Of a stretch of DNA of 32,178 bases, positions 3,125-28,407 are shown piece by piece. Source of the stretch: a virus. The stretch spans positions 1 through 32,178 of IMG/VR virus record IMGVR_UViG_3300031857_000835. One strand, written 5' to 3'. The translations under genes and the position numbers were made by a program. Within the stretch, counting starts at the first letter, position 1; every line of letters starts with the position of its first letter. Under the pieces are notes generated by a model that searched no databases, was not told the DNA's origin, and saw nothing but the letters and a program-made list of their open reading frames with translations.

Positions 3125-3384
3125 GTAAGCAATACAACAACATCTCGGTATTCAAAGCAAAGGCAAGCCAGAACGCGAAGGCTCCGCAGTTCAACGTAGT
3201 CATCGAGATGGCTGATGGAACCAAGTGGCGCGGCGGTCTGTGGGAGGCAACATCCAAGGCTGGCACCAAGTACCTGCGTGGCTCACTCGATGAGGACACA
3301 GGTCAAGGTGGTGGCGGTCAGGTCAGAGCAGCGCCTAAGAACGACGATCCATTTGCTGGTGGTGGTGACTTAGTAGATTGGTGA
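3121..3384 (+). CDS. Small protein coupled to ERF; possible ssDNA-binding accessory
   Basis: An 87-residue protein whose ATG overlaps the ERF stop by 4 bases. The first 55 residues look like a small beta domain (FNVVIEMADGTKWRGGLWE, then KAGTKYLRGSL). A glycine-rich linker and an acidic end follow (KNDDPFAGGGDLVDW). The layout of a compact beta domain, a flexible Gly-rich linker and a DDPF-like acidic tail recalls single-stranded DNA-binding proteins, and the fold also recalls the DUF736 type. Neither assignment is proven by eye. Its place directly behind ERF supports a role with ssDNA. Confidence 0.7.
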   Translation: MSKQYNNISVFKAKASQNAKAPQFNVVIEMADGTKWRGGLWEATSKAGTKYLRGSLDEDTGQGGGGQVRAAPKNDDPFAGGGDLVDW

Positions 3385-3542
3385 TCGACGCGCCCCGGGT
3401 TCATACGTATTGCAGATGCGCCCACCGACCGGGGGCCAACGCAAAGGGTGGGGAAACTTCCTTTCGACTCGGGGAACCGGGTGGTTACAGCCCATAACGT
3501 CAGGGTAATCTGCATCGGCGTGACAACTGGAGAGACAGTGAT

Positions 3543-3629
3543 GGAGAGGACGCCTCGTAGGAAGGGCACCGGACTGTAACTCCGTGGTCGGCTAGTTCCG
3601 TGAAGGTTCGAATCCTTCCCTCTCCACCA
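3543..3629 (+). tRNA. tRNA-Tyr (GTA anticodon) or tRNA-Tyr-like domain
   Basis: The acceptor stem GGAGAGG (3543-3549) pairs with CCTCTCC (3619-3625), followed by A and an encoded CCA. The T arm GAAGG/TTCGAAT/CCTTC (3602-3618) is canonical and identical to the E. coli tRNA-Tyr T arm as I recall it. The anticodon loop CTGTAAC (3574-3580) gives GTA, tyrosine. A 16-base variable region with a short CGG/CCG stem makes it class II, as bacterial tRNA-Tyr should be. The D stem GCCT/GGGC (3552-3555/3564-3567) closes with a T-G pair. Oddities: position 8 is A where U is nearly universal, and pair 27-43 is a C-T mismatch. It may therefore be a weak tRNA or a structural tRNA mimic inside the larger RNA. 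Confidence 0.75.
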
Positions 3630-3716
3630 AGACGCATGAGGATTGACCATTCAAAAGATGGGCGTCGGGCAGGACAGATAAACCTGTACCCACTTGCAGT
3701 CCTCAGTCGTGTTGGT
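3627..3716 (+). repeat. Long-range helix unit A (first copy of duplicated stem)
   Basis: The left arm CCAAGACGCATGAGGATT (3627-3644) starts in the CCA end of the tRNA. The right arm AGTCCTCAGTCGTGTTGG (3698-3715) pairs with it as 8 bp, a CA/GT internal loop, then 8 bp with one G-G mismatch. The interior holds an alternative GACGC/GCGTC stem (3631-3635/3662-3666) with CCAT/ATGG, and an ACAG/CTGT hairpin (3674-3687). Both arms recur in unit B. Confidence 0.7.
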
Positions 3717-3839
3717 GACGACCATCATACCGGGCCGTGTGGGAAAACGGGGCATCACCAGATCTCAACTTGGGAGATCGGCGGCGAAACCAAGAGGCAG
3801 CGCGGAAAGACGCGCCGTGTTCCTGACTGATCATCAGGG

Positions 3840-3981
3840 CCAACACGCATGAGGATTTGGGCAGGATGAAGCCGGTCAGTGGAAAGCTCTAACGTCACTT
3901 GCTGCAGCAACACGCTATCTGTCTTTAATCCCGGTGCTCTGTACGGATCGCAACCGTAACCGAGTCCTCAGTCGTGTTGGT
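3840..3981 (+). repeat. Long-range helix unit B (second copy of duplicated stem)
   Basis: The left arm CCAACACGCATGAGGATT (3840-3857) differs from unit A by one base, and that change restores a perfect CCAACACG/CGTGTTGG outer stem. The right arm repeats 19 identical bases of unit A (3963-3981 against 3698-3716). The interior is unrelated to that of unit A and includes a TTGCTGCAGCAA palindrome (3899-3910) and hairpin TACGG/CCGTA (3942-3958). Confidence 0.7.
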
Positions 3982-4147
3982 TTCAACGAGGGAAAGCAAG
4001 CGGCGGGGAGCTTTGGTCGGTTCATCCCAAATGCTTGTGAGTACCTCACCCGTTTATGGGCAAAAGCGGATGCTGTGAAATGGGTAGCCGGGAACAATCA
4101 CTACCGGCCACAGACGCAGCGAGTAGCCCACCTTATTAGGAGGATGT

Positions 4148-4651
4148 GTGGATCAGTACATAGGCACCAAGATCATCAAGGCAAAGCCAATGAACCGTCT
4201 GGAGTACAACCAGCTGCGCGGCTGGGAAGTTCCGGCAGACGAAGACCCGAATGATGAGGGCTACCTCGTAGAGTACACGGATGGTGGTAAAGCTAACCAT
4301 CGCGACTTTGGGGGCTATATCAGCTGGTCTCCAAAAGATGTGTTCGAGCGAGCGTATCAACCGACAGCGGGTATGGATTTCGGGATGGCGATTTGCGCAT
4401 TGAAGCAGGGCGCCAAGGTTACCCGCTCTGGTTGGAATGGCAGGGGCATGTGGCTAATCCTCGTGAGCGGCCAACCAGAAGTAAATACGTTCCCCAACAG
4501 CGCGTACTACAACGCTGGCGTTAAGCAGTGCGAGATTCTCCCCCACATTGATATGTGGACTGTGAATGCACAAGGTCGTCGCGCAATGCTTCCGGGCTGG
4601 TTGGCAAGCCAGTCGGACATGCTGGCTGAGGACTGGATGATCGTCGAATGA
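4148..4651 (+). CDS. Tad2-like (DUF2829) anti-Thoeris protein with an extra N-terminal domain
   Basis: Residues 76-167 match the DUF2829/Tad2 pattern: MDFGMAICALKQGAKVTRSG, WNGRGMWLILV, HIDMWTVNAQGRRAMLPGWL and SQSDMLAEDWMIVE. Characterised Tad2 proteins form oligomers that sequester the cyclic ADP-ribose-type signal of the Thoeris defence system. Residues 4-70 form a separate domain (YIGTKIIKAKPMNRLEYNQL, GYLVEYTDGG, GGYISWSPKDVFERAY) often seen joined to DUF2829 in phages; its function is unknown to me. The start is GTG at 4148 with GGAGG at 4139-4143. A start at Met15 would cut into the conserved first domain. The gene directly follows the structured RNA, and its stop overlaps the nuclease start (ATGA). 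Sponge activity here is inferred from family. Confidence 0.85.
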   Translation: MDQYIGTKIIKAKPMNRLEYNQLRGWEVPADEDPNDEGYLVEYTDGGKANHRDFGGYISWSPKDVFERAYQPTAGMDFGMAICALKQGAKVTRSGWNGRGMWLILVSGQPEVNTFPNSAYYNAGVKQCEILPHIDMWTVNAQGRRAMLPGWLASQSDMLAEDWMIVE

Positions 4652-8625: not shown

Positions 8626-8982
8626 ATGAGTGAGCTAGAAAGAATCTACGCAGAGGCAAGAGAGTATGCGGAGGGTGAGCGCAGGTTGGCTCAAGAGGGA
8701 GTCATGCAGCTGGACATCCAAGCGCTGCGCAGGGAATACATCGATTTGATGGCAATGGTGGCGTACTACACCCGTATTGAACAGGCAATGTCTGCCACCC
8801 CGCGCCTACACTTCGATGCGCTGAAGAAGGCAATGAAGGACATCAAGGCAGAGGAGATGCTGCATCAGGCAGAGGTTGCATCTGAGGACGGGATGCCGAT
8901 TGCAGGGACCGCCCGTGTTCCGGCTAAGCCCCTGCTCGAGATCCTTTCACGGCTGAAGGCGATCCTTAGCGATCATCAATAA
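8626..8982 (+). CDS. Hypothetical helical protein, last gene of the rightward operon
   Basis: A 118-residue protein starting at the ATG at 8626 (MSELERIYAEAREYAEGERR); the longer frame from 8536 overlaps the previous gene and lacks a ribosome-binding site. It is helical throughout, with a linker (PIAGTARVPAKP) before the last helix. No family is recognised. Its final 17 bases overlap, tail to tail, the end of the giant minus-strand gene. Confidence 0.65.
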   Translation: MSELERIYAEAREYAEGERRLAQEGVMQLDIQALRREYIDLMAMVAYYTRIEQAMSATPRLHFDALKKAMKDIKAEEMLHQAEVASEDGMPIAGTARVPAKPLLEILSRLKAILSDHQ

Positions 8983-11900
8983 CCTCGGCAGTGAAGCCAC
9001 GCTCCAGTGCTGCCTTAACAGATCTGGCTCTCCATTCCTTCCTCATCGCTTCGTATTCGTTTCGAAGTTCTACCTTCTGACGATCGGAGCGATTGGGGTC
9101 GCGCTCGATGGCTTCCAGATTTTTGCTCATCTGTTTCATCTGCTGCTCGATCCCAGAGAACATGGCTTGCATTTCACCAATACGAGGATGAGCTTTGAGG
9201 ATCTCACGCTTTCTCGCCTCTGATGTTTCGGGTGCCATGTACTCCTTGTAGGAAGTATTGACCTCCTCCTTGACTCGACGGTACGCGCCAGCGTTGAACG
9301 AGTCCTCATCGATCTTGGCCTTGAACCTACCAAGTACCGGGAGGTCTTGATCCTTTGTATCCCGGCCAGCAGCGGCGTTCAAAGCCTTCCCGGCTCCTTG
9401 ATACATCGAAGAGATCAGACCCGGCAGATAGCTGTTGATCAGGTAATCCACGGTTGCTGGATTAACATCGATCAACGACTCGTTGTACCTCGGGTTCTTC
9501 CCGCCAGATGTAGCCTCAGCCAAGAAGTGCATCAGGCTCTTCGAAATCGGGTTCACGCTATCAAAGTGCTTGTAGGCGTCAGACTCTTTGATGTCAGAGA
9601 AGTCGCTCTCACCCTTGGCAATCGGAGCGCCAAAGCGGTTTTCGTTCAACCCCAACTCGAGCAGCGGAACCGTAGGACTTGGCAGCAGAGTCTTACCAAC
9701 CTGACCCAAGAAGCTCTTCGATTCCACGCCGGAACCAATCGGAGCAAACGCATCGAATGCGGCCTTGACAACCTTGCCAGCTGAACTTGCTGCGCTGCGG
9801 TAACCCATCGCCGTGTCGTAGGCGTACTGCCCCATTGTGGAGAACACGTTCCAGCCATAAGCCACAGGAATGGAGCCGAAGTAGGTGTCAGGCAGGAAGG
9901 TGATCGAGGTAGCTCGCTTGTAGTCAGGCACCTTGTCGATGGCGCGAAGACCTTTCTTGCGTTCCTCTTCATCGTCATCACCAAAGGCGTCAGCAATCAT
10001 GCTACCGATCATGCCCATCGTGATCCAGCCCGCAGCCACGGCGCCAAAGCGAACGTAGTTGCCTTCCTTGGCATCCTTGAACATACGCATCGTGCCCTGA
10101 ATTGCCGGATTGGCAAACACGTACAGGGCTCGCAGAGGTTTGTAGGCGCCCTTCATGTTGAAGTTGACCGTCAGCTCCTTTGCGTAGCGAGCCGCCTCTT
10201 CTCTGGATCTTCCAGCCTCACGCAGCACCTTGTATGCAGCAAGACGCGGGGCGATCTCAGCAGGTGTGCCAAGCAGATCCATCAGATCAGCGATCGCATC
10301 GAACTTGCCGGTTGTCCAGATGCCAGCATCTTTCACGCCTCGGATCTTACCGATCGTCATCGGGTTCAGGTGACGGTTTAGCTTGTCGATCGTTTGCTCC
10401 AGACCGTTCCTGTCGATGAAGTATGTAGCTGCTCCGTCCTCGAAGAACTCACTGATCCACTGCTTCTCAGAAGCCGACAGCGGGTTCTTCTGAGCAGCGG
10501 CTTTCATGCGGTTGCCCCACCATCCCTGCTTTGCGTCGGCTTGCTCTGCTACCAAGTGACGGAAGGCAATACGGTGAGTGCGCTTCCACTCCATGAACAT
10601 CTTGCCAGCCAGCTCAACACCAACCTCAGGGTCAGCGGCAGCGTTGGCGAACGCAGTTTGAATGTCTCGGACCATGTTTACCGGTACCCAAGCCGGGTTC
10701 ATCGTTGTGACCATCTGCGAGAACAACCTGTTCCAAACAGCAACAGCCTCAATGAACGGTCCGTTCTGGGTGATGTTCATCCCGGTGATAGCATCGAAGA
10801 AGTCCATCGACTTGCCGTTGAACTCCATCGTGATTGGCTTGCCGTTGACCTTGACCACCACCTGACGATCTTTGTCGCCCGTGGTCTCGACGGTCGTGAC
10901 GTATCCGTCTGGGCTCAGTCTTGCCGAGATCACAACCTGCTCGTTGATGTTGCGAACTGCACGAGCTGCTTCGTCTGGAGAGATGTCGCGACGAGTTTCG
11001 GCTTCGTTGATCCGGCGAACCAGATCAGCCATAGCATCATCGCTGTCCAACGCGCCATCTTTCATTTGACGCTGGAGACCAATGAGGTACTCGCGGCCTG
11101 ATTCTTCGGTTGGAGCATCACCAATAGCACGAAGGATCTTCTTGTCGAAGCTCAGGCGGTCGATGTTGATCTGCTTGCGACGATTGACGTTTTCAACCTT
11201 GACGTAGCTCTGGTCGGGGTTCTGCTCAAACATCTGCAGAATTGCTTGCAGCGGACGGTTCTTCTGTCCACGGATGATCGTAGCCAAGTACGAGTTCATC
11301 GTGTTCTGCAATACATCTACAGCTACTGTGCCACGACCAGTTGCTCGAATGATGTCAGAGCCACGCACATTGAACGAGCGCCCACCCAACTGGCTGACGT
11401 CGTACTTGTCGAGATCCAACTCCTGATTGCCGGAGAGGTTGACGTAGTGCTTGTAGCGCGACAGGGACTCGTACTGATACTTGTTGATCAAGCCAGTGTT
11501 GAGCATGTAGCTCAGCTTAGCTTGGCTCATTGCATCCATCAGCCTGCCGATCTCACTCAGCTCATCAATAAACGGCTTACCCTCCATGTCCTTCAGAACA
11601 TCCTCGTACCCCGGCGTGACAGTGCCGTCACTATTGGTTGTATTGCGGGGGCCCATGCCAGAGCCACGCGAGTTCTTGGGGTTGATCGCTTTGATGACAC
11701 GGTTACGCTCCTCGGCATGACGCGCCATCAGGAACAAGTCGATGTCTTCCAGCGTTGCACCTTTCTTGCCAGCCTCACCCATCAAGCGGGTAATCGGGTT
11801 GGCGAACTTTTTCTCGTAGTTGTCGATGAACCACTTGGTGCGAGACTCATACTTGATCAGGTCATCGATGACCGAGTTCTTGATGCCTTTGCCCTCGAGG

Positions 11901-14900
11901 AACTTTGCCACCTCAAAGATGGGCAGGAACATGTTCTGACCTTGGATCAGCATGTTGCGCTTGAATCTAGCCCAGCCACTCAGGTCACTGAAGTTCGGGA
12001 TCTCGGCCACGTTCTTAGGATCAACTTCTTGGCGTGTCGAGCGGTCACGAGCCATCGTCACCTGACCCACCTTCTTCAGCAGATCATGTGCATCCACCAG
12101 CTCTTCAACGGTGTGGACAGTGTAGTTGCCTGAGGCCAGAGACTCTGCGCCATTGTTCAGGGTGAAGACAGTCCAGTACCCATTGACTGGGTTGATGCGG
12201 GTATAGCCGGTGACCTTACCGTCCCGAATAGCGTAGCCTTCGACAGGCATCTTCTTCGAGCGGTTGTACATCACATCAGAAGGGGCGCCATCGAGCGGTG
12301 AGATGCCCTGCTTGGACATTGCTACCTTACGAGCCTGAGACATGACGTATGCCAGCTCAGAGGATCCGGTTGAATCCAGCCAGCTTGCCACGTTGTTCAT
12401 GCCGTGCTTCTTCAGCCAGCGCACCAGACGACCCATCAACTCACGGAATGCACTTGCATTACCTTCAGTTGCCTGATCAGCAATCGCTTCTTCGATGGAC
12501 TCCAACTTGGTCATCGGCATGCCGTTTTCTTTGGCTTCCGCAGCTAGACGGTCGGCAGCTTCACGAACTTTCTGGTTGACCTTGTACTGGTTGTTCAGGA
12601 AAGAGTCGATGCTATCCCCGAGGAAAGCCCTCATGCCCCAGTGACCGTACAGCTCGTGGAACATTGTGAACTCTGCATCTTCCACCGACTCAGCAAACTC
12701 CGAGAAGATGTAGATGTGTCCCGTCTTGGGATCAATCGCACCCTTGAACGAGCCATTCTCAAAGCGGCTCATCAGACGGTTACGCACATCAGCAGGCAGC
12801 TGGTTCGGGTTTTGAACTACCGTGTAAGCAGGAGTTGTGTCCCACTTCGAGAAGATGCGGTTGAAGTGTTCTTGCAGGGTGAGTGCGCCAACCACACCAG
12901 AGAAACGGCCACGACGATAGCGGGTACCCTCGCCGTCCTCATCTGAGATCTCATCCAGATCCTTGGCGTTGGTGTCGTCACGCGCCATTACCTCTTTCAG
13001 GTAGGCGTCGATCGTATTGTCAGGGTTAGCGCCAGCCTCGATTGCAGCCTTGGCAACGTCGTTCAGCTCAGCTGCCTCATGCAGGATGGACTTGAACTGA
13101 CCTTCGTCGGCTTTGGCAATCTGAGTGCGGTAGTTCATCCACATCTCAGGCGACAGGTAGCGCAGCTGATCGAGCTGGGAATACACGGGCGAGCGCATCT
13201 TCATGTCGAGGTTGCGCATTGCCTCTCTCACCTGACGGGTGAAGAATTCGTTGTAGGCTTCCTGCTCTTCTTTCGTCAGAGCGTCGTTGACCTGATTCTC
13301 GAGGTCAGGGCGAACAGTCAGGACGTCTGAGATGTCTTGCAGCCAAGCACGTACCGGATCAGGGAATAGGTCACGGATCATTTGGCGCAAAGGCACCTCA
13401 GTGATCGTGTCAGGATTCCTCATCTCAGACAGGGAGAACTGATTGAACAGGGCGTTCGGGAACAGCGTTTCCAAACTGCCGGTCGAGAATGAAGCGTTGT
13501 CCTTGATGCGGTCGGACAGGCGCTGCATGTACTTCCTGCGATTGTTCTTCCAGTTATCGTAGGCAGTCTTCTCGGTATCACTAAGTGGTACCAAGCTCTT
13601 GACGGGAACGTTGTCGTAGGCTTTGAGCCACGCTTCACGGGCCATGTACGGGCTCATCCCCGACTTGTCCATATAGCCTTCGAGGGTGTAGTTGGCGGCG
13701 ATGTTGCCTGACAAATCGATGTACTTCTTTCCAACTTGAACACCAGCTTCGCGCATAGCGTCGAGCAGATGCATCATCCCTATGTCGTTCTCGCGGACAG
13801 CCTTGACTGCCTCTTCGAAAGTCATCTCTTGGGCTTTATCAACAGCCTCTTTGATGTCCTTCTCGGAGAAGCCCTCCTTCTTCATGCGCTCACGAGTCTT
13901 CTGCTTATTACCAATCGCCTCTACTAAAAGACGAGCCTCGGTGCGTTGCTGGTCATTGAAGTCCAGCTCAGTCTGCATCTCGTTGCTACCCGGGAAGGTC
14001 TCGGGTTCTGCATTAGTGTCTTCTGCCACAGGAACTGCAGGGCGGCTATCGCGTAGCTGTTCTTCAACGATGTCGGCCAGCTCGCCATCACGCAGCGCCT
14101 TCAATTCAGCTTCGGCTTTACCAACAGTAGCGTTGATCTCAGATTCAGAGAACCCATCCCTCGCCATCAGATCTCGCACGCCAGCAAGCTGACCGAGCTT
14201 TCTGTCAACGTCTCTGAGCAGAGAGCGGACGCGCGCGTTCATGATCTGCGCGTTCTCTTCTGCCAAACGATCTTCCTCGGCCTTGCGTTCTTCTGCGGTT
14301 TGGGTCTTCTGCTCAGCTTTGATCTGACCCTCGGCGCCTCCCAGTGATCCAGCCATAGCCAACTGAGTCATCACACCACCGGTATCGTTGTCCAGTGATG
14401 TGTCGGGCATATCCTCAGGGTTGAAGTCTTCAGTGATGCGATCATCCAAAGCCTTGCGCTTGCCCTCTTGACCGCGCTGGATTGCAGTGTCCTTGCGCTG
14501 AGCCTTCTTCTCTTTAACGCGGTCCGTCTCACCAGACATAATCCGGGACACTTCGGTGTCAAAGGGGGTAACGTCACGCTTCAATCGCAGAGCGCCCTGA
14601 GGTTCCTGACTAAAGATCGCCTGACTGATCTTCTTCGACCCTTCGGCTTGGACCGCTGCTTCCAACTCTTTGAAGTCCTCGCCAAACGAACTCAGGCTTG
14701 ATGCCTTGAATAGTTTGTTGGCTTCGATCAACGCCTTGTTTCGAACGCCTTTCTCTGCAGACTTGTTATTTGCAAGACGCAGCAGCTCCACGACGGCGCG
14801 GACATTCTTCTCAGCCTCAGCCAAAGCAAGGGCGCCTTGATCGTAGCGGACTGGAGTTTCCTCTCCAGAGTCGGTCTGATCAGACTGGGACACGTTCGGG

Positions 14901-17900
14901 TCAGCTATACCAAGAGCTTTCCTTTGCTGGGCAATATACTTCTCGTTGTCCTCAATAACTTTCTTGGCGTCAGTCTGATTTGCAGGTGCCTGCTGACTTT
15001 CTTTCACCACATCGTTGAAGTTGACGCCGGTCCTCTTGTACAGATCCGCCTTACGGAAGATGCCACGGGCTTGCTCAAACTCACCACTTGCCAACAAGGA
15101 GCGGACTTGCGCTAAGGTCTGCTTGTCTTCGTCGCTGGTTCCCTCAAAGGCGTTGTCGATCGCGCCATCTGAGGTGAAGTCGAGGTCAGTCCCACCTTGG
15201 GACTCGGTGACAAATCCGACCAGCATCTCCCTGACCTTCTGCATGTCGGTCACGTACTCTGCGATCAATCTGTTGCGCTCGGTCATGAAGCCGAACTTGT
15301 AAAGCATGTCATCGATGACTTGAATGATTTTGTCTACAAGCGTCGGTTGCTTCTGACTCAACTCAGCCCAGAACTCTTTCTCGGTGAACATGTAGCCCAT
15401 CAGGTCGGCGGTCATCTCCTCATCAATCTTGGAGATGTCGTAGCCTCTATTCAGTAGCTTTTGAGCTAACACCTCTTTGCCCGGCTGGGTGACGTAAGAC
15501 AGGATCTCCTGTTCCAACTGGGCAGCGACTTCAGGGTTTCTACGGCGCAGCTCGTGGTACAGCTCATGACCAAAGATAGCCATGTGGTTGTCCTGAGCGT
15601 CAGCGTTGATCAACATGACGCTGCCCGACAGGGAAGACCCACGACGGGTGCGAAGCAGCTTGTTGTTGCCTGCGTACCGGAAACCGTACACCTGAACACC
15701 AAAGCGCTTAGCAAGCTCCCTGATCTGCGGAGGGATAGGGGTCTCGATGTAGTCTGATGGCTTGGCGGTCGGCTCCCTTTCCAGATCTCTCTGGGCCATA
15801 CGCTCACTCACTTGAGCAAACGTCTGGAAGTTGGGGTCGATCTTGGGACGGATGTCTTCTTGTGTGAAGTCCAGATCGGCGGGAGGTGGGGCTGCGTCTA
15901 CCTCTTCAACATTCTCAACAACACCTTGTTGTGGGTTGGCGATAGATCCAAAGACGGACTGAGCCTGCTCTGGGGTGAATCCCCGGCTGATCATTTCCTG
16001 CATCGAGGAAGTGGCGGCAGCGCGACGAGCGCCCTCAGGCATGGACATCAGATTTTCTGCGCGGCGTTCGTAGCCACGGATCTGAATGTCTAGCGGAGGT
16101 TGGCCGGGAAGCTGAACGGATGGGCCAGCACTAAGCGTGTCGGAAGCTGGAGTGGATAGAGGTTTCTCTCGGGAGAACTGACCCTCGGCAATAGCTTGAC
16201 CTTCATCTGCCAGACTTTGCGCCATCTTCATGCGTTCACGAACAGGCACTGGGTCAGGCGGGGCATCTCTCATGGTGCCGCCATCAAACGGAGCGTCGTC
16301 CACACGAGCGTCAGGATTAGCGTTGTTTTCAGCTAACCGAGTGGTGAAATCCGCAAAGAAGTCAGGATTATTGTCGATGCGGGAGTTGCCCTCTTGCAGG
16401 ATAGATTGGTCCTGAGACAGCTCTGCAAAGTTGAGATCAGGGTTGGCGGTTTGTATGCGGGTACGACCGGCTTCGTCAGCGCGAGTCCATGCTGCGGTCA
16501 TGTAGGCTGGACTATTGACAGCCGCGCCGTACTCAGCATCCGTCAATGGAGGGCGGGCAGCTGATGATTGTTGCGTCTGCTGCGTCTGCTGCGTTTGTTG
16601 CGTTTGTTGCGTTTGTTGCGTTTGGCCCGGCTTGTCAGCAGGAGGGGGTGGGGTACTTGCGGGCTTGCTGCCACGAATAGCACTGAGCGTACCAAAGCCG
16701 CCACCAGCCGCAACGCCTAGAGCGGCGCCAGCACCAGCAGCCTGAGGAACACCCTCAAGAAGATCCTGATCAGGCTTAGCTCCCGAGTAGCGTGTACCAA
16801 CGTTGGTTGCAAACTGAGAGCCGCCTTCCTCAACAGCCTCTTGTGCTCCTTCTTTGACAACGCCTTTGCCAATCTCCGCCACGACCTTGCTGGCGGTGCG
16901 CTCCCCGATCTCGGATGCAACTTGACCAGTGAGAACCTTAGCTTCGAGCTTGCCAGCGCCAGTTAAGCCGCCAGACAGCAACGAGATTGTTCCAGCAAGA
17001 GATGCGGCGACAGCAGAGGCGTCATTAGACAGGCGTTCACGCGCTTGCTTTCTACCCTCTGGCGTGTCACCAAATTGTGATAACAACTGCTGATACTGAG
17101 GAGACTTACTCAGCTCATCCTCGCTCATCGTCATCACATTCTGACGAGCGTCCATACCAGCTGAGCCGCCTTCAATCGCGGCATTTAAGCCAAGAACGGT
17201 GCGAGTAGCACTTGTTGTCGCAGCAGTGGCCGCAGCTCCAGCAGACAAGCCAGAGGCTGTAGCAGAACTAAAAGCCCTAGCAGCAGCAGCACGAGCGGCT
17301 AATGCAACTGTGGCCAGCTGAGGCCCCATCTCAAAAACCATCGAACCGGCAAGGCGCGGGTTGGTAAGGATTGTCGAGAAAGAATCGACAAAACCTTTGG
17401 CCTGCTCCAGCTCAGCGCGCTGTGCCTGCAGTTCCGTGGAGTCTTGGGCGTTAAGACCCTTCCGCCATTTGTCCAGCACCTCGCCGGGAGTCGTTCCAGA
17501 GATAGCTCTTGCTGCCGCATCAGGAGCGCCCAACGTAACAAGGTTTGCCACCTCATTCACACCGCCAACAACGCTTATCGCTCCCCTGCCCAATGACCGC
17601 CCTACGTCTCCCAAGAAGGTTCCATCGGTCTCCGGAGTGGGCGCTGCTTTTGCTGTAGATGCTGCTTTGTAACGCGATTGGATTTCTTGCAGGACCCGAT
17701 CTGAATCAGATAAAGCTGGCGCGGGGTTTGGCGCAGCAGATGGCACAGGCGGGGGCGGAGCAATTGCGGCTCTGCGCTGCTGACTCAGATACTCAGCTGC
17801 TTCTTGGCCGGGCACATACTCGCGACCTCTTTGCTGCCGATATACGTCGCCGGGGTTGTATTCGCCACTTGCAATCGCCTGCCCTCTGCGGCGAACCTGT

Positions 17901-17935
17901 TTCCCTGCTTCGTCTGATGTTTGGAAGATCGCCAT
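8966..17935 (-). CDS. Giant polyvalent-type virion protein with two zincin-like motifs
   Basis: At 2989 residues this is the last gene of the late operon. The N-terminal 60 residues are short and Gly/Ala/Pro rich, followed by long Ala-rich hydrophobic stretches (about 195-260 and 395-420) that could interact with membranes. A glutamine/threonine repeat lies near 437-457. A zincin-like metallopeptidase motif GHELYHELRRR has its HExxH at residues 790-794. Long charged coiled-coil regions follow, then a second motif FHELYGHWGMRAFLG near 1760. A conserved block VTTMNPAWVPVNMVRDIQ near 2410 resembles the LPD38-type domain of large polyvalent proteins. A hydrophobic segment (GAVAAGWITMGMIGSMIADA) lies near 2640, ahead of a structured C-terminus. 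Its position after the nozzle and two smaller internal-type proteins matches the slot of the T7 ejection protein gp16. I infer an ejected virion protein that may cleave protein or peptidoglycan and help DNA cross the envelope. Confidence 0.85.
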   Translation of the reverse strand: MAIFQTSDEAGKQVRRRGQAIASGEYNPGDVYRQQRGREYVPGQEAAEYLSQQRRAAIAPPPPVPSAAPNPAPALSDSDRVLQEIQSRYKAASTAKAAPTPETDGTFLGDVGRSLGRGAISVVGGVNEVANLVTLGAPDAAARAISGTTPGEVLDKWRKGLNAQDSTELQAQRAELEQAKGFVDSFSTILTNPRLAGSMVFEMGPQLATVALAARAAAARAFSSATASGLSAGAAATAATTSATRTVLGLNAAIEGGSAGMDARQNVMTMSEDELSKSPQYQQLLSQFGDTPEGRKQARERLSNDASAVAASLAGTISLLSGGLTGAGKLEAKVLTGQVASEIGERTASKVVAEIGKGVVKEGAQEAVEEGGSQFATNVGTRYSGAKPDQDLLEGVPQAAGAGAALGVAAGGGFGTLSAIRGSKPASTPPPPADKPGQTQQTQQTQQTQQTQQTQQSSAARPPLTDAEYGAAVNSPAYMTAAWTRADEAGRTRIQTANPDLNFAELSQDQSILQEGNSRIDNNPDFFADFTTRLAENNANPDARVDDAPFDGGTMRDAPPDPVPVRERMKMAQSLADEGQAIAEGQFSREKPLSTPASDTLSAGPSVQLPGQPPLDIQIRGYERRAENLMSMPEGARRAAATSSMQEMISRGFTPEQAQSVFGSIANPQQGVVENVEEVDAAPPPADLDFTQEDIRPKIDPNFQTFAQVSERMAQRDLEREPTAKPSDYIETPIPPQIRELAKRFGVQVYGFRYAGNNKLLRTRRGSSLSGSVMLINADAQDNHMAIFGHELYHELRRRNPEVAAQLEQEILSYVTQPGKEVLAQKLLNRGYDISKIDEEMTADLMGYMFTEKEFWAELSQKQPTLVDKIIQVIDDMLYKFGFMTERNRLIAEYVTDMQKVREMLVGFVTESQGGTDLDFTSDGAIDNAFEGTSDEDKQTLAQVRSLLASGEFEQARGIFRKADLYKRTGVNFNDVVKESQQAPANQTDAKKVIEDNEKYIAQQRKALGIADPNVSQSDQTDSGEETPVRYDQGALALAEAEKNVRAVVELLRLANNKSAEKGVRNKALIEANKLFKASSLSSFGEDFKELEAAVQAEGSKKISQAIFSQEPQGALRLKRDVTPFDTEVSRIMSGETDRVKEKKAQRKDTAIQRGQEGKRKALDDRITEDFNPEDMPDTSLDNDTGGVMTQLAMAGSLGGAEGQIKAEQKTQTAEERKAEEDRLAEENAQIMNARVRSLLRDVDRKLGQLAGVRDLMARDGFSESEINATVGKAEAELKALRDGELADIVEEQLRDSRPAVPVAEDTNAEPETFPGSNEMQTELDFNDQQRTEARLLVEAIGNKQKTRERMKKEGFSEKDIKEAVDKAQEMTFEEAVKAVRENDIGMMHLLDAMREAGVQVGKKYIDLSGNIAANYTLEGYMDKSGMSPYMAREAWLKAYDNVPVKSLVPLSDTEKTAYDNWKNNRRKYMQRLSDRIKDNASFSTGSLETLFPNALFNQFSLSEMRNPDTITEVPLRQMIRDLFPDPVRAWLQDISDVLTVRPDLENQVNDALTKEEQEAYNEFFTRQVREAMRNLDMKMRSPVYSQLDQLRYLSPEMWMNYRTQIAKADEGQFKSILHEAAELNDVAKAAIEAGANPDNTIDAYLKEVMARDDTNAKDLDEISDEDGEGTRYRRGRFSGVVGALTLQEHFNRIFSKWDTTPAYTVVQNPNQLPADVRNRLMSRFENGSFKGAIDPKTGHIYIFSEFAESVEDAEFTMFHELYGHWGMRAFLGDSIDSFLNNQYKVNQKVREAADRLAAEAKENGMPMTKLESIEEAIADQATEGNASAFRELMGRLVRWLKKHGMNNVASWLDSTGSSELAYVMSQARKVAMSKQGISPLDGAPSDVMYNRSKKMPVEGYAIRDGKVTGYTRINPVNGYWTVFTLNNGAESLASGNYTVHTVEELVDAHDLLKKVGQVTMARDRSTRQEVDPKNVAEIPNFSDLSGWARFKRNMLIQGQNMFLPIFEVAKFLEGKGIKNSVIDDLIKYESRTKWFIDNYEKKFANPITRLMGEAGKKGATLEDIDLFLMARHAEERNRVIKAINPKNSRGSGMGPRNTTNSDGTVTPGYEDVLKDMEGKPFIDELSEIGRLMDAMSQAKLSYMLNTGLINKYQYESLSRYKHYVNLSGNQELDLDKYDVSQLGGRSFNVRGSDIIRATGRGTVAVDVLQNTMNSYLATIIRGQKNRPLQAILQMFEQNPDQSYVKVENVNRRKQINIDRLSFDKKILRAIGDAPTEESGREYLIGLQRQMKDGALDSDDAMADLVRRINEAETRRDISPDEAARAVRNINEQVVISARLSPDGYVTTVETTGDKDRQVVVKVNGKPITMEFNGKSMDFFDAITGMNITQNGPFIEAVAVWNRLFSQMVTTMNPAWVPVNMVRDIQTAFANAAADPEVGVELAGKMFMEWKRTHRIAFRHLVAEQADAKQGWWGNRMKAAAQKNPLSASEKQWISEFFEDGAATYFIDRNGLEQTIDKLNRHLNPMTIGKIRGVKDAGIWTTGKFDAIADLMDLLGTPAEIAPRLAAYKVLREAGRSREEAARYAKELTVNFNMKGAYKPLRALYVFANPAIQGTMRMFKDAKEGNYVRFGAVAAGWITMGMIGSMIADAFGDDDEEERKKGLRAIDKVPDYKRATSITFLPDTYFGSIPVAYGWNVFSTMGQYAYDTAMGYRSAASSAGKVVKAAFDAFAPIGSGVESKSFLGQVGKTLLPSPTVPLLELGLNENRFGAPIAKGESDFSDIKESDAYKHFDSVNPISKSLMHFLAEATSGGKNPRYNESLIDVNPATVDYLINSYLPGLISSMYQGAGKALNAAAGRDTKDQDLPVLGRFKAKIDEDSFNAGAYRRVKEEVNTSYKEYMAPETSEARKREILKAHPRIGEMQAMFSGIEQQMKQMSKNLEAIERDPNRSDRQKVELRNEYEAMRKEWRARSVKAALERGFTAEVIDDR
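16569..16625 (-). repeat. In-frame 9-base tandem repeat encoding a Gln-Gln-Thr tract
   Basis: About six and a third copies of a 9-base unit (tgttgcgtt and variants with ctg or gtc) encode a run of TQQ near residues 437-457 of the giant protein. Three units at one end differ at synonymous positions while the others are identical, which suggests recent expansion by slippage. It probably forms a flexible linker between the hydrophobic N-terminal part and the rest of the protein. Confidence 0.9.
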
Positions 17936-26950: not shown

Positions 26951-27643
26951 CTAGTTAAACACTCTCCATGTTCGCGGGTCGAACACACCGGTCGCATAGT
27001 TCGGGGCCTCCTCGTTGAACACTAACAAAACATCCCCTGCCAGCGAGATTCTTGTCTCATCACCCATGTCGCCCAATTTCACTGTGCCGTGCATCAAGTG
27101 ACTTGGGAACACAAGCAGCTGCCCCTCTTCTACCGTTAGCACAGACTGGTTCGCGTTTAGCGCATTCCTATCCAGCACCAATGAGCGCTGCCTCGGTGTT
27201 GATGCTCCAAACGCTCCATAGAATGGCTCATTTGGCGACGCTGGAATCTGGAACGCTATGGCGTCTGCCTCTTTGGGCATGTTCATGTAGTACACAAACG
27301 ACAAGTGACTTGTGGCGTGTGCATGCACTGGAGTAACGGTGTTGTTGTTTGTTGCGCTGACCCAAGTCTTGACGATGTTGATATCAACTCTTGAGCGGTC
27401 GAACGCAAGCTGATCAAGGTACGCCGCGACACCAGCAGAAATAAAACGGAAGAGTCCTTCTAACTCTGAGTCAGTGTGCACATAAACCTTACCGCTACTT
27501 TCCCCGGCAATTAGCCCGCCACCCTCATGATGAATGCAATGCTCAGGGAGGCGATCCATAAAAATTCGCTTGTACTCTTTGTGGTTGTCGCTTTCAAAAC
27601 TGCCTACTGCAGTCGGAAACATGTAGTTTAATGAGCACTTCAT
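26951..27643 (-). CDS. 2OG-Fe(II) oxygenase-like protein
   Basis: A 230-residue protein resembling the phage group of putative 2-oxoglutarate/iron oxygenases. Metal-site candidates are in TPVHAHATSHLSFVYYMN (His107, His109), with the distal His in FPSHLMHGT (His182 or His185) and the 2OG-binding Arg in TRISLAGD (Arg198). The first metal motif is H-A-H rather than the usual HxD, so activity is uncertain. It lies directly after the desaturase gene (ATGA overlap) and could modify a protein, lipid or small molecule. Confidence 0.72.
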   Translation of the reverse strand: MKCSLNYMFPTAVGSFESDNHKEYKRIFMDRLPEHCIHHEGGGLIAGESSGKVYVHTDSELEGLFRFISAGVAAYLDQLAFDRSRVDINIVKTWVSATNNNTVTPVHAHATSHLSFVYYMNMPKEADAIAFQIPASPNEPFYGAFGASTPRQRSLVLDRNALNANQSVLTVEEGQLLVFPSHLMHGTVKLGDMGDETRISLAGDVLLVFNEEAPNYATGVFDPRTWRVFN

Positions 27644-28407
27644 AACGCCTTTTCTTTGGCAAACAGAACCCGAATAATTACACCGATCAAATCGACCTCA
27701 CTCCGACTCTCTGAGGTTGTGAACCGCGTAGGCTTTGCGTGATGGTTGTTGTGGAACGCGACCCCATTCCACCCCAGCATCAAGTTCACCCAATGGTTGT
27801 TGGTTGAGGTGTCTCGCGTGTCATGCGTTCTGTAGCCTTTGCCGTGGCAAAAAACAGTCACCAGCCCGTTTGCAAAAAAGGCGTACACATGCGTAACGAG
27901 CAGCCCGTACACTAGCGCTTTCAGGCTAACCAGACCTATCACGAACAGAGTGCTCAGGTAGATTTTAAGGTAGTGCCGCGCCATGAAGTTCAACCAAGGA
28001 TCCTGCATTAGGCGCTTTGCCGTCCCTTGGTCAATCGACTTTCCAAAGTTCTTCGATACCCAGAACCACGATTGCCAAGGGGTGGAAGAAGGATGCGGGT
28101 CGCGGTCCGTGTCAGAGTACTTGTGGTGTGTAGTGTGCGTTGCCGCAATCCCGATCGGGTTTCCGTACAAGTTGTATATCGATAGAACAGCGCACAGTCT
28201 TTGCGCCCACAATGGCATCTTGAACGACCTGTGGCACAGATAACGGTGGCAGTACATCTCCTGCCCGACCCAAAGAAAAAGAACGCTGCACGCGGCACTT
28301 AACAACAGCCACTTTGGATCCCAAAGCAGAACCACCCCGAAGACTGCGGCGATATGCACCATCAACATAGTGAGGCGCAGCTTCGTAAACTCCGACAATC
28401 GCATCAT
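27640..28407 (-). CDS. Membrane fatty-acid/acyl-CoA desaturase
   Basis: A 255-residue integral membrane di-iron enzyme with all three histidine boxes of the delta-9 desaturase family: HRYLCH (54-59), HTTHH (91-95) and HNNHH (219-223). Two pairs of hydrophobic segments (LMVHIAAVFGVVLLW, WLLLSAACSVLFLW, LSTLFVIGLVSLKALVYGLL) match the four-span topology. It would introduce a double bond in acyl chains with O2 and an electron donor that the phage does not supply here. This is an auxiliary metabolic gene, likely taken from a host, and could alter membrane fluidity during infection. It overlaps both neighbours by 4 bases. Confidence 0.93.
   Translation of the reverse strand: MMRLSEFTKLRLTMLMVHIAAVFGVVLLWDPKWLLLSAACSVLFLWVGQEMYCHRYLCHRSFKMPLWAQRLCAVLSIYNLYGNPIGIAATHTTHHKYSDTDRDPHPSSTPWQSWFWVSKNFGKSIDQGTAKRLMQDPWLNFMARHYLKIYLSTLFVIGLVSLKALVYGLLVTHVYAFFANGLVTVFCHGKGYRTHDTRDTSTNNHWVNLMLGWNGVAFHNNHHAKPTRFTTSESRSEVDLIGVIIRVLFAKEKAL

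Follow-up and report, generated by a model that had tools for sequence, protein, structure and literature searches.

The two helices at positions 3627-3717 and 3840-3982 of the window, that is, the 32,178-nt stretch of viral DNA analysed here (IMG/VR record IMGVR_UViG_3300031857_000835, positions 1 to 32,178), probably provide the sockets of a phage RNA with a modular and highly structured design, which is held together by three-strand joints and may act as a scaffold, a reading drawn from sequence comparison to which we assign a probability of roughly 60%. Comparison shows that each socket consists of the outer pairs ACG/CGT together with the pairing of an outer 5' strand (alpha) to an outer 3' strand (beta), a fixed 2x2 internal loop CA/GY, and an 8-bp inner helix with compensated changes, while its tip carries an exchangeable, separately folded domain whose exchange points are the arms. 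Strand beta can pair either with alpha on its 5' side or with a further strand, gamma, located 3' of the following domain, with both pairings covarying. Other recurrent modules accompany the stem within a noncoding phage block, as do tRNAs in some of the loci. The modularity, structure, and spread of this module, hereafter the H-stem, are well supported. A scaffold role of the GOLLD/ROOL type is our best guess for its function, the main rival being a regulatory RNA with multiple seeds.

The first-pass annotation of this DNA had proposed that both arms of a 16-bp two-part helix are duplicated, and sequence matching in the window confirmed it: the 5' arm occurs as CCAAGACGCATGAGGATT at 3627-3644 and as CCAACACGCATGAGGATT at 3840-3857, and the 3' arm AGTCCTCAGTCGTGTTGGT occurs at both 3698-3716 and 3963-3981, compared with means of 0.03 and 0.01 matches for the arms in shuffled windows (up to three mismatches allowed). 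Unit 1 (3627-3717, + strand) comprises alpha CCAAGA (3627-3632), the 5' arm CG-CA-TGAGGATT (3633-3644), a 53-nt insert (3645-3697), the 3' arm AGTCCTCA-GT-CG (3698-3709), and beta TGTTGGTG (3710-3717). Unit 2 (3840-3982, also + strand) is made up of alpha CCAACA (3840-3845), the 5' arm (3846-3857), a 105-nt insert (3858-3962), the 3' arm (3963-3974), and beta TGTTGGT (3975-3981). As had been claimed, the two interiors have diverged to the point of being unrelated, and the CA/GT internal loop is retained in both units, with columns 9-10 invariant and the opposite side reading G followed by T or C. The outer helix of unit 1, however, has 4+3 pairs instead of 8 because of a G.G mismatch (CCAAGA vs TGTTGG); the same position carries a non-standard pair in 19 of 49 aligned units. 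Folding of each unit with its own arms yielded z-scores of −3.4 and −3.4 for units 1 and 2 on the + strand vs −1.8 and −1.9 on the − strand, and the stretch 3627-4010 folded as a whole was not unusually stable (z −0.96). The core of the 5' arm, CGCATGAGGAT, also lies on the + strand in the primase region (window position 328, position 1298 of L010, and near relatives), in copies devoid of a 3' arm and perhaps by chance.

Both window units fit the general definition of the H-stem, alpha-CG-CA-TG-N5-T ... A-N5'-CA-G(T/C)-CG-beta with pairing inner and outer helices. A covariance model (R1), built from 49 other units and no window sequence, scored them at 61.2 bits (unit 1, E 2.6e-17) and 50.8 bits (unit 2, E 5e-14), and favored the + strand of the window, unit 1 reaching 18 bits on the − strand. 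Across 49 aligned units from different insert families (alignment A3, which retains one outlier row, L258), pairing was kept in 94.5% of cells. Changes on both sides of a pair occurred in 44 cells vs 10.4 upon shuffling, a figure that none of 500 shuffles reached; they affected seven pairs, with a score exceeding every one of the 500 shuffles and of the slid versions. These compensated changes bear out the earlier proposal that the helix itself is selected. When the bases of the inner helix were left free, 181 unique units paired at five of five positions in 223 of 233 places and at four of five in the other 10, the best-pairing register being taken when several lengths fitted; CG, UA, and AU are among the replacements. 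Similarly, alpha and beta paired at five or more of six positions in 270 of 280 units, including changed pairs such as CCATCA/TGATGG, CTAACA/TGTTAG, and CCGTTA/TAGCGG. G-U cells outnumbered A-C cells by 285 to 8, and by 44 to 8 once the fixed U-G pair was set aside, which indicates that this strand is selected as RNA. Units near contig ends were left out of the alpha:beta, G-U, and folding counts, as well as of the gamma position and neighbor-strand counts given below.

Since the arms are interchangeable, it had also been suggested that one unit could pair with the other, or with units on another molecule, giving dimers or larger assemblies. Identical arms, present in 20 distinct tandem pairs including that of the window, make such an exchange chemically possible and cannot tell cis from trans pairing; GOLLD and ROOL are described as multimeric in PMC12286853, though by contacts other than shared arms. 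Tandem units that differ from each other, however, gave 38 informative pairs, in which the fit to the own partner was better in 25, equal in 12, and worse in one. This places covariation of the arms within units, and speaks against pairing between units as the selected state. Each arm pair, moreover, closes its own insert (z about −3.4), and we regard assembly through shared arms as very unlikely. The idea of a local tandem duplication was not borne out either, because the inserts belong to different families and that of unit 2 (also found in L085, L248, and L262) is common to other phages; the window holds two copies of a widespread module.

The stem looks like a constant socket into which different phages plug different tip domains, as would be expected of RNAs built from interchangeable parts. 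We collected 266 distinct inserts, 16-183 nt long, which fell into 137 clusters (82 singletons), the largest family being found in 12 different 3' contexts. The window shares ~170 identical columns past the 3' arm with its relatives L085 and L094, yet the unit-1 inserts are unrelated; relative to L085, the replacement of one insert has its borders exactly at the arms, and both relatives also differ from the window in the domain that follows unit 2. A relative of the L085 insert resides in a K module (described below) of L045. At least eight clusters occur on a clearly different helix (c5, c8, c14, c35, c36, c49, c58, and c83; flanks read by eye). Our script had placed 18 of the 137 outside the stem, those beyond the at least eight being diverged stems that it missed, a duplicate copy (c45), or ambiguous. 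The inserts have covarying helices of their own, in keeping with independent folding: double changes were evident in 86 of 256 predicted insert pairs (19 clusters), a count that takes the RNAalifold structure as given and carries no shuffle control. One insert family bears a tRNA T-arm (GGTTCGANTCC or close; L046, L048, L166, L177, and L186); a stem of P1 likewise has a T-arm in its tip (L278, about 1083-1160).

Conserved arms flanking exchangeable inserts, with replacement exact between the arms, are also what a DNA-level element would display, namely single-stranded hairpins used as cassette recombination sites. Integron attC hairpins have imperfect conserved arms and a variable terminal part, and their hallmarks are the R boxes GTTRRRY / RYYYAAC and an integron integrase. 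The H-stem shares the conserved arms and the variable terminal part, but its arms are sequence-conserved over the whole stem and the evidence points to RNA rather than DNA, the excess of G-U over A-C outside the fixed pair being unexplained at the DNA level. Furthermore, inserts are found on other helices too, contigs in most loci carry no more than two units, the block tends to run in the direction of the genes, and no integron integrase stood out in a general list of the window ORFs. A recombination site is, in our view, very unlikely.

A fixed stem with an exchangeable tip could alternatively be a multi-seed regulatory RNA, with the stem as scaffold and the tip as antisense seed, like the STnc100/PasD prophage sRNAs. 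According to a preprint (PMC13192938), PasD and STnc100 have a common fold with different seeds and targets. Consistently with such a relationship, STnc100 (RF02076; Rfam gathering cut-off, 47 bits) matched below threshold inside the related-design arrays of ST4 (39.1 bits, E 8.4e-6) and P1 (33.9 bits, E 1.8e-4), although neither gathering nor permissive Rfam scans returned an STnc100 match in the window. STnc100, for which PMC5331693 reports a Northern blot (STnc100_4 in EHEC) and which is also treated in PMC12370729, is characterized as a short sRNA that acts by base pairing, in contrast to the multi-domain array considered here. Besides, the inserts are structured domains covering the wide length range given above, and their complementarity to their own contig did not exceed that of shuffled inserts (mean longest match 8.97 vs 8.88; 250 inserts, p 0.60). 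We hold the antisense alternative to be rather unlikely.

Beta, the strand that follows the stem, reads TGTTGG, usually TGTTGGTG, and has a second, covarying partner downstream, gamma, which closes the neighboring domain and whose canonical form, CACCAACA, is seen in relatives. The motif CCAACA lies downstream in 147 of the 237 units with beta TGTTGG, so gamma is not universal; a control count (84 of 237) is uninformative, since the real joint sequence CAACAACC itself contains the reversed motif. In these 147 units, the second base after beta paired with the gamma side in 131 (shuffled 94.7, maximum 107) and the first base in 135 (shuffled 127.2), and the third and fourth positions stayed within the shuffles' maximum. 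A gamma test that allowed G-U failed to separate real from reversed sequences (242 of 280 vs 223 of 280). In prophage L280, alpha, beta, and gamma are all changed (CCTCA / TGAGGGTG / CACCCTC), and the prophage loci L281 and L284 also have all three strands altered together. Some of the domains closed by beta and gamma resemble tRNAs (L006, L017, and L281). In the window, no CCAACA follows unit 2 before the next gene, and unit 1 has only the 6-nt TCACCA (3755-3760, + strand), a short, non-canonical candidate gamma read from the sequence as complementary to TGGTGA at 3713-3718.

The alpha:beta and beta:gamma pairings are mutually exclusive. In predicted folds of 120 units, beta paired with alpha at P 0.85 before gamma was present, and at 0.57 with alpha and 0.31 with gamma in full units, which is near balance; nearest-neighbor folding rendered gamma the winner over alpha in only 39 of the 120 full units. 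We infer that alpha would hold beta during transcription and that gamma would displace alpha once the next domain has been made, a handover by which successive units, despite their identical joint sequences, would fold one after another and not crosswise. With least certainty, the finished RNA might be an infection-stage scaffold, GOLLD/ROOL-like, whose tips bind host or phage factors.

The window block is bounded upstream by a small gene ending at 3384, which, judging by its sequence, we take to encode an SSB-like protein; its sole match is PF05284 (DUF736), just above the cut-off. It is preceded by an ERF recombinase gene, ahead of which lies a good sigma-70-like promoter at 2430-2457 (one found, 1.6 expected by chance). 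The block opens with a 5' structured domain (3385-3542, + strand; for example, helix GCAGAT 3412-3417 / ATCTGC 3508-3513), which can be aligned with L085 and L094, where it is conserved and its helix strands correspond. Next comes a tRNA-Tyr (GTA; 3543-3629, + strand; ARAGORN, and Rfam tRNA at 47.8 bits), missing from the L085 and L094 alignments at exactly its window position. Since it adjoins unit 1, its CCA (3627-3629) doubles as the first three bases of alpha. Between candidate gamma and unit 2, we read three small hairpins from the sequence (3761-3838, + strand), one of them with a GGAAAGAC loop (3797-3818); TCGGAAAGACGG was found in 17 of 185 nonredundant regions. Unit 2 is followed by two K-type modules, read by eye on the + strand: GAGG-GAAAGC ... 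GTGAGTA-CCTC (3988-4047), which has the frame of a recurrent module, and GGGC-AAAAGCGGATGCTG ... CAGACGCAGCGAGTA-GCCC (4058-4129). The K half-motifs are present in 38 and 28 of the 185 regions, and the N module discussed below is absent from the window. The RNA region ends at the ribosome-binding site of a gene for a Tad2-like (Thoeris anti-defence 2-like) protein (4148-4651, + strand; PF11195, E 1.4e-22). Rfam gathering and permissive scans of the block retrieved only the tRNA and two weak, chance-level matches overlapping it, and blastn against 50,697 phage records retrieved tRNA pieces only. Elsewhere, the window carries a fatty acid desaturase gene (27640-28407; PF00487, E 2.6e-15) and a 2989-aa ORF with the large polyvalent protein domain LPD38 (8966-17935).

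The contact between tRNA-Tyr and unit 1, a tRNA-Asn directly preceding the second unit in L027, and the several tRNA-like domains (X domains; L006, L017, and L281) could suggest that the stems are hairpins of phage tRNA operons, acting as spacers or in processing. However, a tRNA was present in just 7 of the 30 loci scanned, and we consider this highly improbable.

As for the spread of the module, searches with the exact arms hit 94 IMG/VR stretches, a longer-gap pattern 78, and a pattern that left the inner five bases open but required TGTTGG at least 120. The resulting list holds 353 units in 275 loci (~270 viral contigs, the window itself included as L095), corresponding to 185 nonredundant regions, with one unit in 201 loci, two in 70, and three in 4. 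Because the locus-finding patterns fix parts of the motif, arm-sequence frequencies in this list are biased. In 50 whole records (49 viral, one bacterial), the free-inner pattern was found in 38, with two matches at most in each, as compared with 5 for the reversed control pattern. The module also occurs in prophages of Burkholderiales. Bacterial carriers are few: the strict pattern identified 2 contigs in a genome set of 84,980 species, and among 398 genomes of the Polynucleobacter family R1 matched 6. About 1.1 kb of modules, ending at a tRNA-Gly, lies on the − strand of Polynucleobacter sp. UK-Kesae-W10, probably within a prophage (L097:420-1600). The stem had no Rfam match in the scanned stretches (window block and relatives), and such blocks have therefore likely been overlooked in annotation as empty DNA. 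Among the titles and abstracts listed for open-access literature on GOLLD, STnc100, phage tmRNA, modular or large phage RNAs, and P1 RNAs, none describes the H-stem.

Neighboring genes lie mostly on the same strand as the units, 110 vs 59 upstream and 120 vs 55 downstream, as scored with a mechanical ORF caller that placed an ORF over a unit in 101 of the 185 regions. HNH endonuclease is the commonest upstream family (11 of 100 proteins scanned of 110), accompanied by terminase small subunit, SSB, and Holliday resolvase families. Downstream (100 scanned of 120), one family each of the large (12) and small (10) terminase subunits are matched most often, the others being HTH proteins and many more. 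The predicted RNA is often located where replication genes give way to packaging genes. Alternatively, the block could be a cis-acting leader or riboswitch-like element controlling the gene that follows. This would explain why it stops at the ribosome-binding site for the Tad2-like protein in the window, and a few bases ahead of a start codon in several relatives. It fits poorly, though, with downstream genes as varied as those just listed, or with the terminator that closes some copies (L012 and L033; by eye), and we deem it highly unlikely.

We know of no established function for GOLLD, ROOL, and similar large structured phage RNAs. We read the RNA predicted here as a modular large structured phage RNA that is GOLLD/ROOL-like in its setting and a member of neither family. 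As GOLLD is depicted in PMC12286853, both are large, structured, noncoding, phage-borne, and near tRNAs, with a conserved part and a variable part able to hold tRNAs; the difference lies in the small repeated stem with exchangeable tips. With ROOL, as portrayed in the same source, it shares the phage or prophage setting near tRNA islands and, in the case of the N module, a putative counterpart of the ROOL kissing loops, but it has no fixed single architecture. Neither the GOLLD nor the ROOL Rfam model matched the window block (E up to 10) or the relatives scanned.

The N module consists of two hairpins with covarying stems and complementary loops, CUGA/UCAG, replaced by UUGA/UCAA in L082 and by CUCA/UGAG in L280 (by eye). 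With these two compensated changes, the loops likely kiss. The search returned 38 candidates, a few of them chance finds lacking the loop match. By blastn, the N module is common to the cultured phages P1, phiEt88 (Erwinia), KP591P1 (Klebsiella), and ST4 (Aeromonas), whose blocks read as variable-tip stems and N modules near tRNAs. In the noncoding dmt-tciA block of P1, variable-tip stems alternate with N modules, tRNAs lie inside, and the alpha/beta/gamma logic can be followed by eye (CACAAC / GTTGTGATG / CATCACAAC). The P1 stem, however, has another sequence (CACAACAGGTAAGG with CCTTACCGTTGTG), and R1 had no match in L275-L278 (P1 being L278), so the tie to P1 is made by the N module, the layout, and a look-alike stem.

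Tentatively, and as a possibility rather than an expectation, phages of beta- and gammaproteobacteria may share a combinatorial system of long noncoding RNAs, put together from well over 100 exchangeable, self-folding domains set in standard three-strand joints. If so, each joint would pass one strand from its upstream to its downstream partner during RNA synthesis, and the stock of domains would include tRNA-like, T-arm, and kissing-loop domains, plus a tmRNA tag in enterobacterial phages. Phage-specific sets of domains would suit an arms race, for instance as RNA decoys against host defence or in translation control. The H-stem family appears more modular than the descriptions of GOLLD and ROOL suggest, and natural shuffling of RNA domains through a reusable joint would interest the fields of RNA evolution and RNA design. 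Since the shared neighboring modules reach cultured model phages, E. coli offers a test bed for questions that uncultured hosts have held up.

Tag frames of the tmRNA type, defined by a resume codon and a tag frame with a ClpXP-type degron at its end, were found only in gammaproteobacterial arrays; for the betaproteobacterial arrays, a search of the 185 nonredundant H-unit loci gave 0 tag-like frames. A tmRNA-like domain with resume codon and tag frames (ANDDLMMVAA, ANDNTFLAVA, ANDNVFLAVA, ANDDVVLMAA, ANDNEFKVAA, ANEEMYLAVA, and others) lies in the phage noncoding blocks L276:900-1080, L278:485-600, and L285-L294; ARAGORN called no tmRNA in L276 or L278. A tmRNA encoded by Felix O1 is mentioned in PMC4392139. 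By blastn, 761 of 50,697 phage records contain the tmRNA-like domain, which is unannotated in most of the matches listed. In the Ackermannviridae phages PhiSH19 (L288), K751 (L292), and phiEa2809 (L293), it lies in ~1.8-1.9 kb that is gene-free by annotation. Finally, a lambdoid E. coli prophage (L286:676-1645) has stems and a tmRNA-like domain between the antitermination gene and the holin, a block that is probably part of the late leader.
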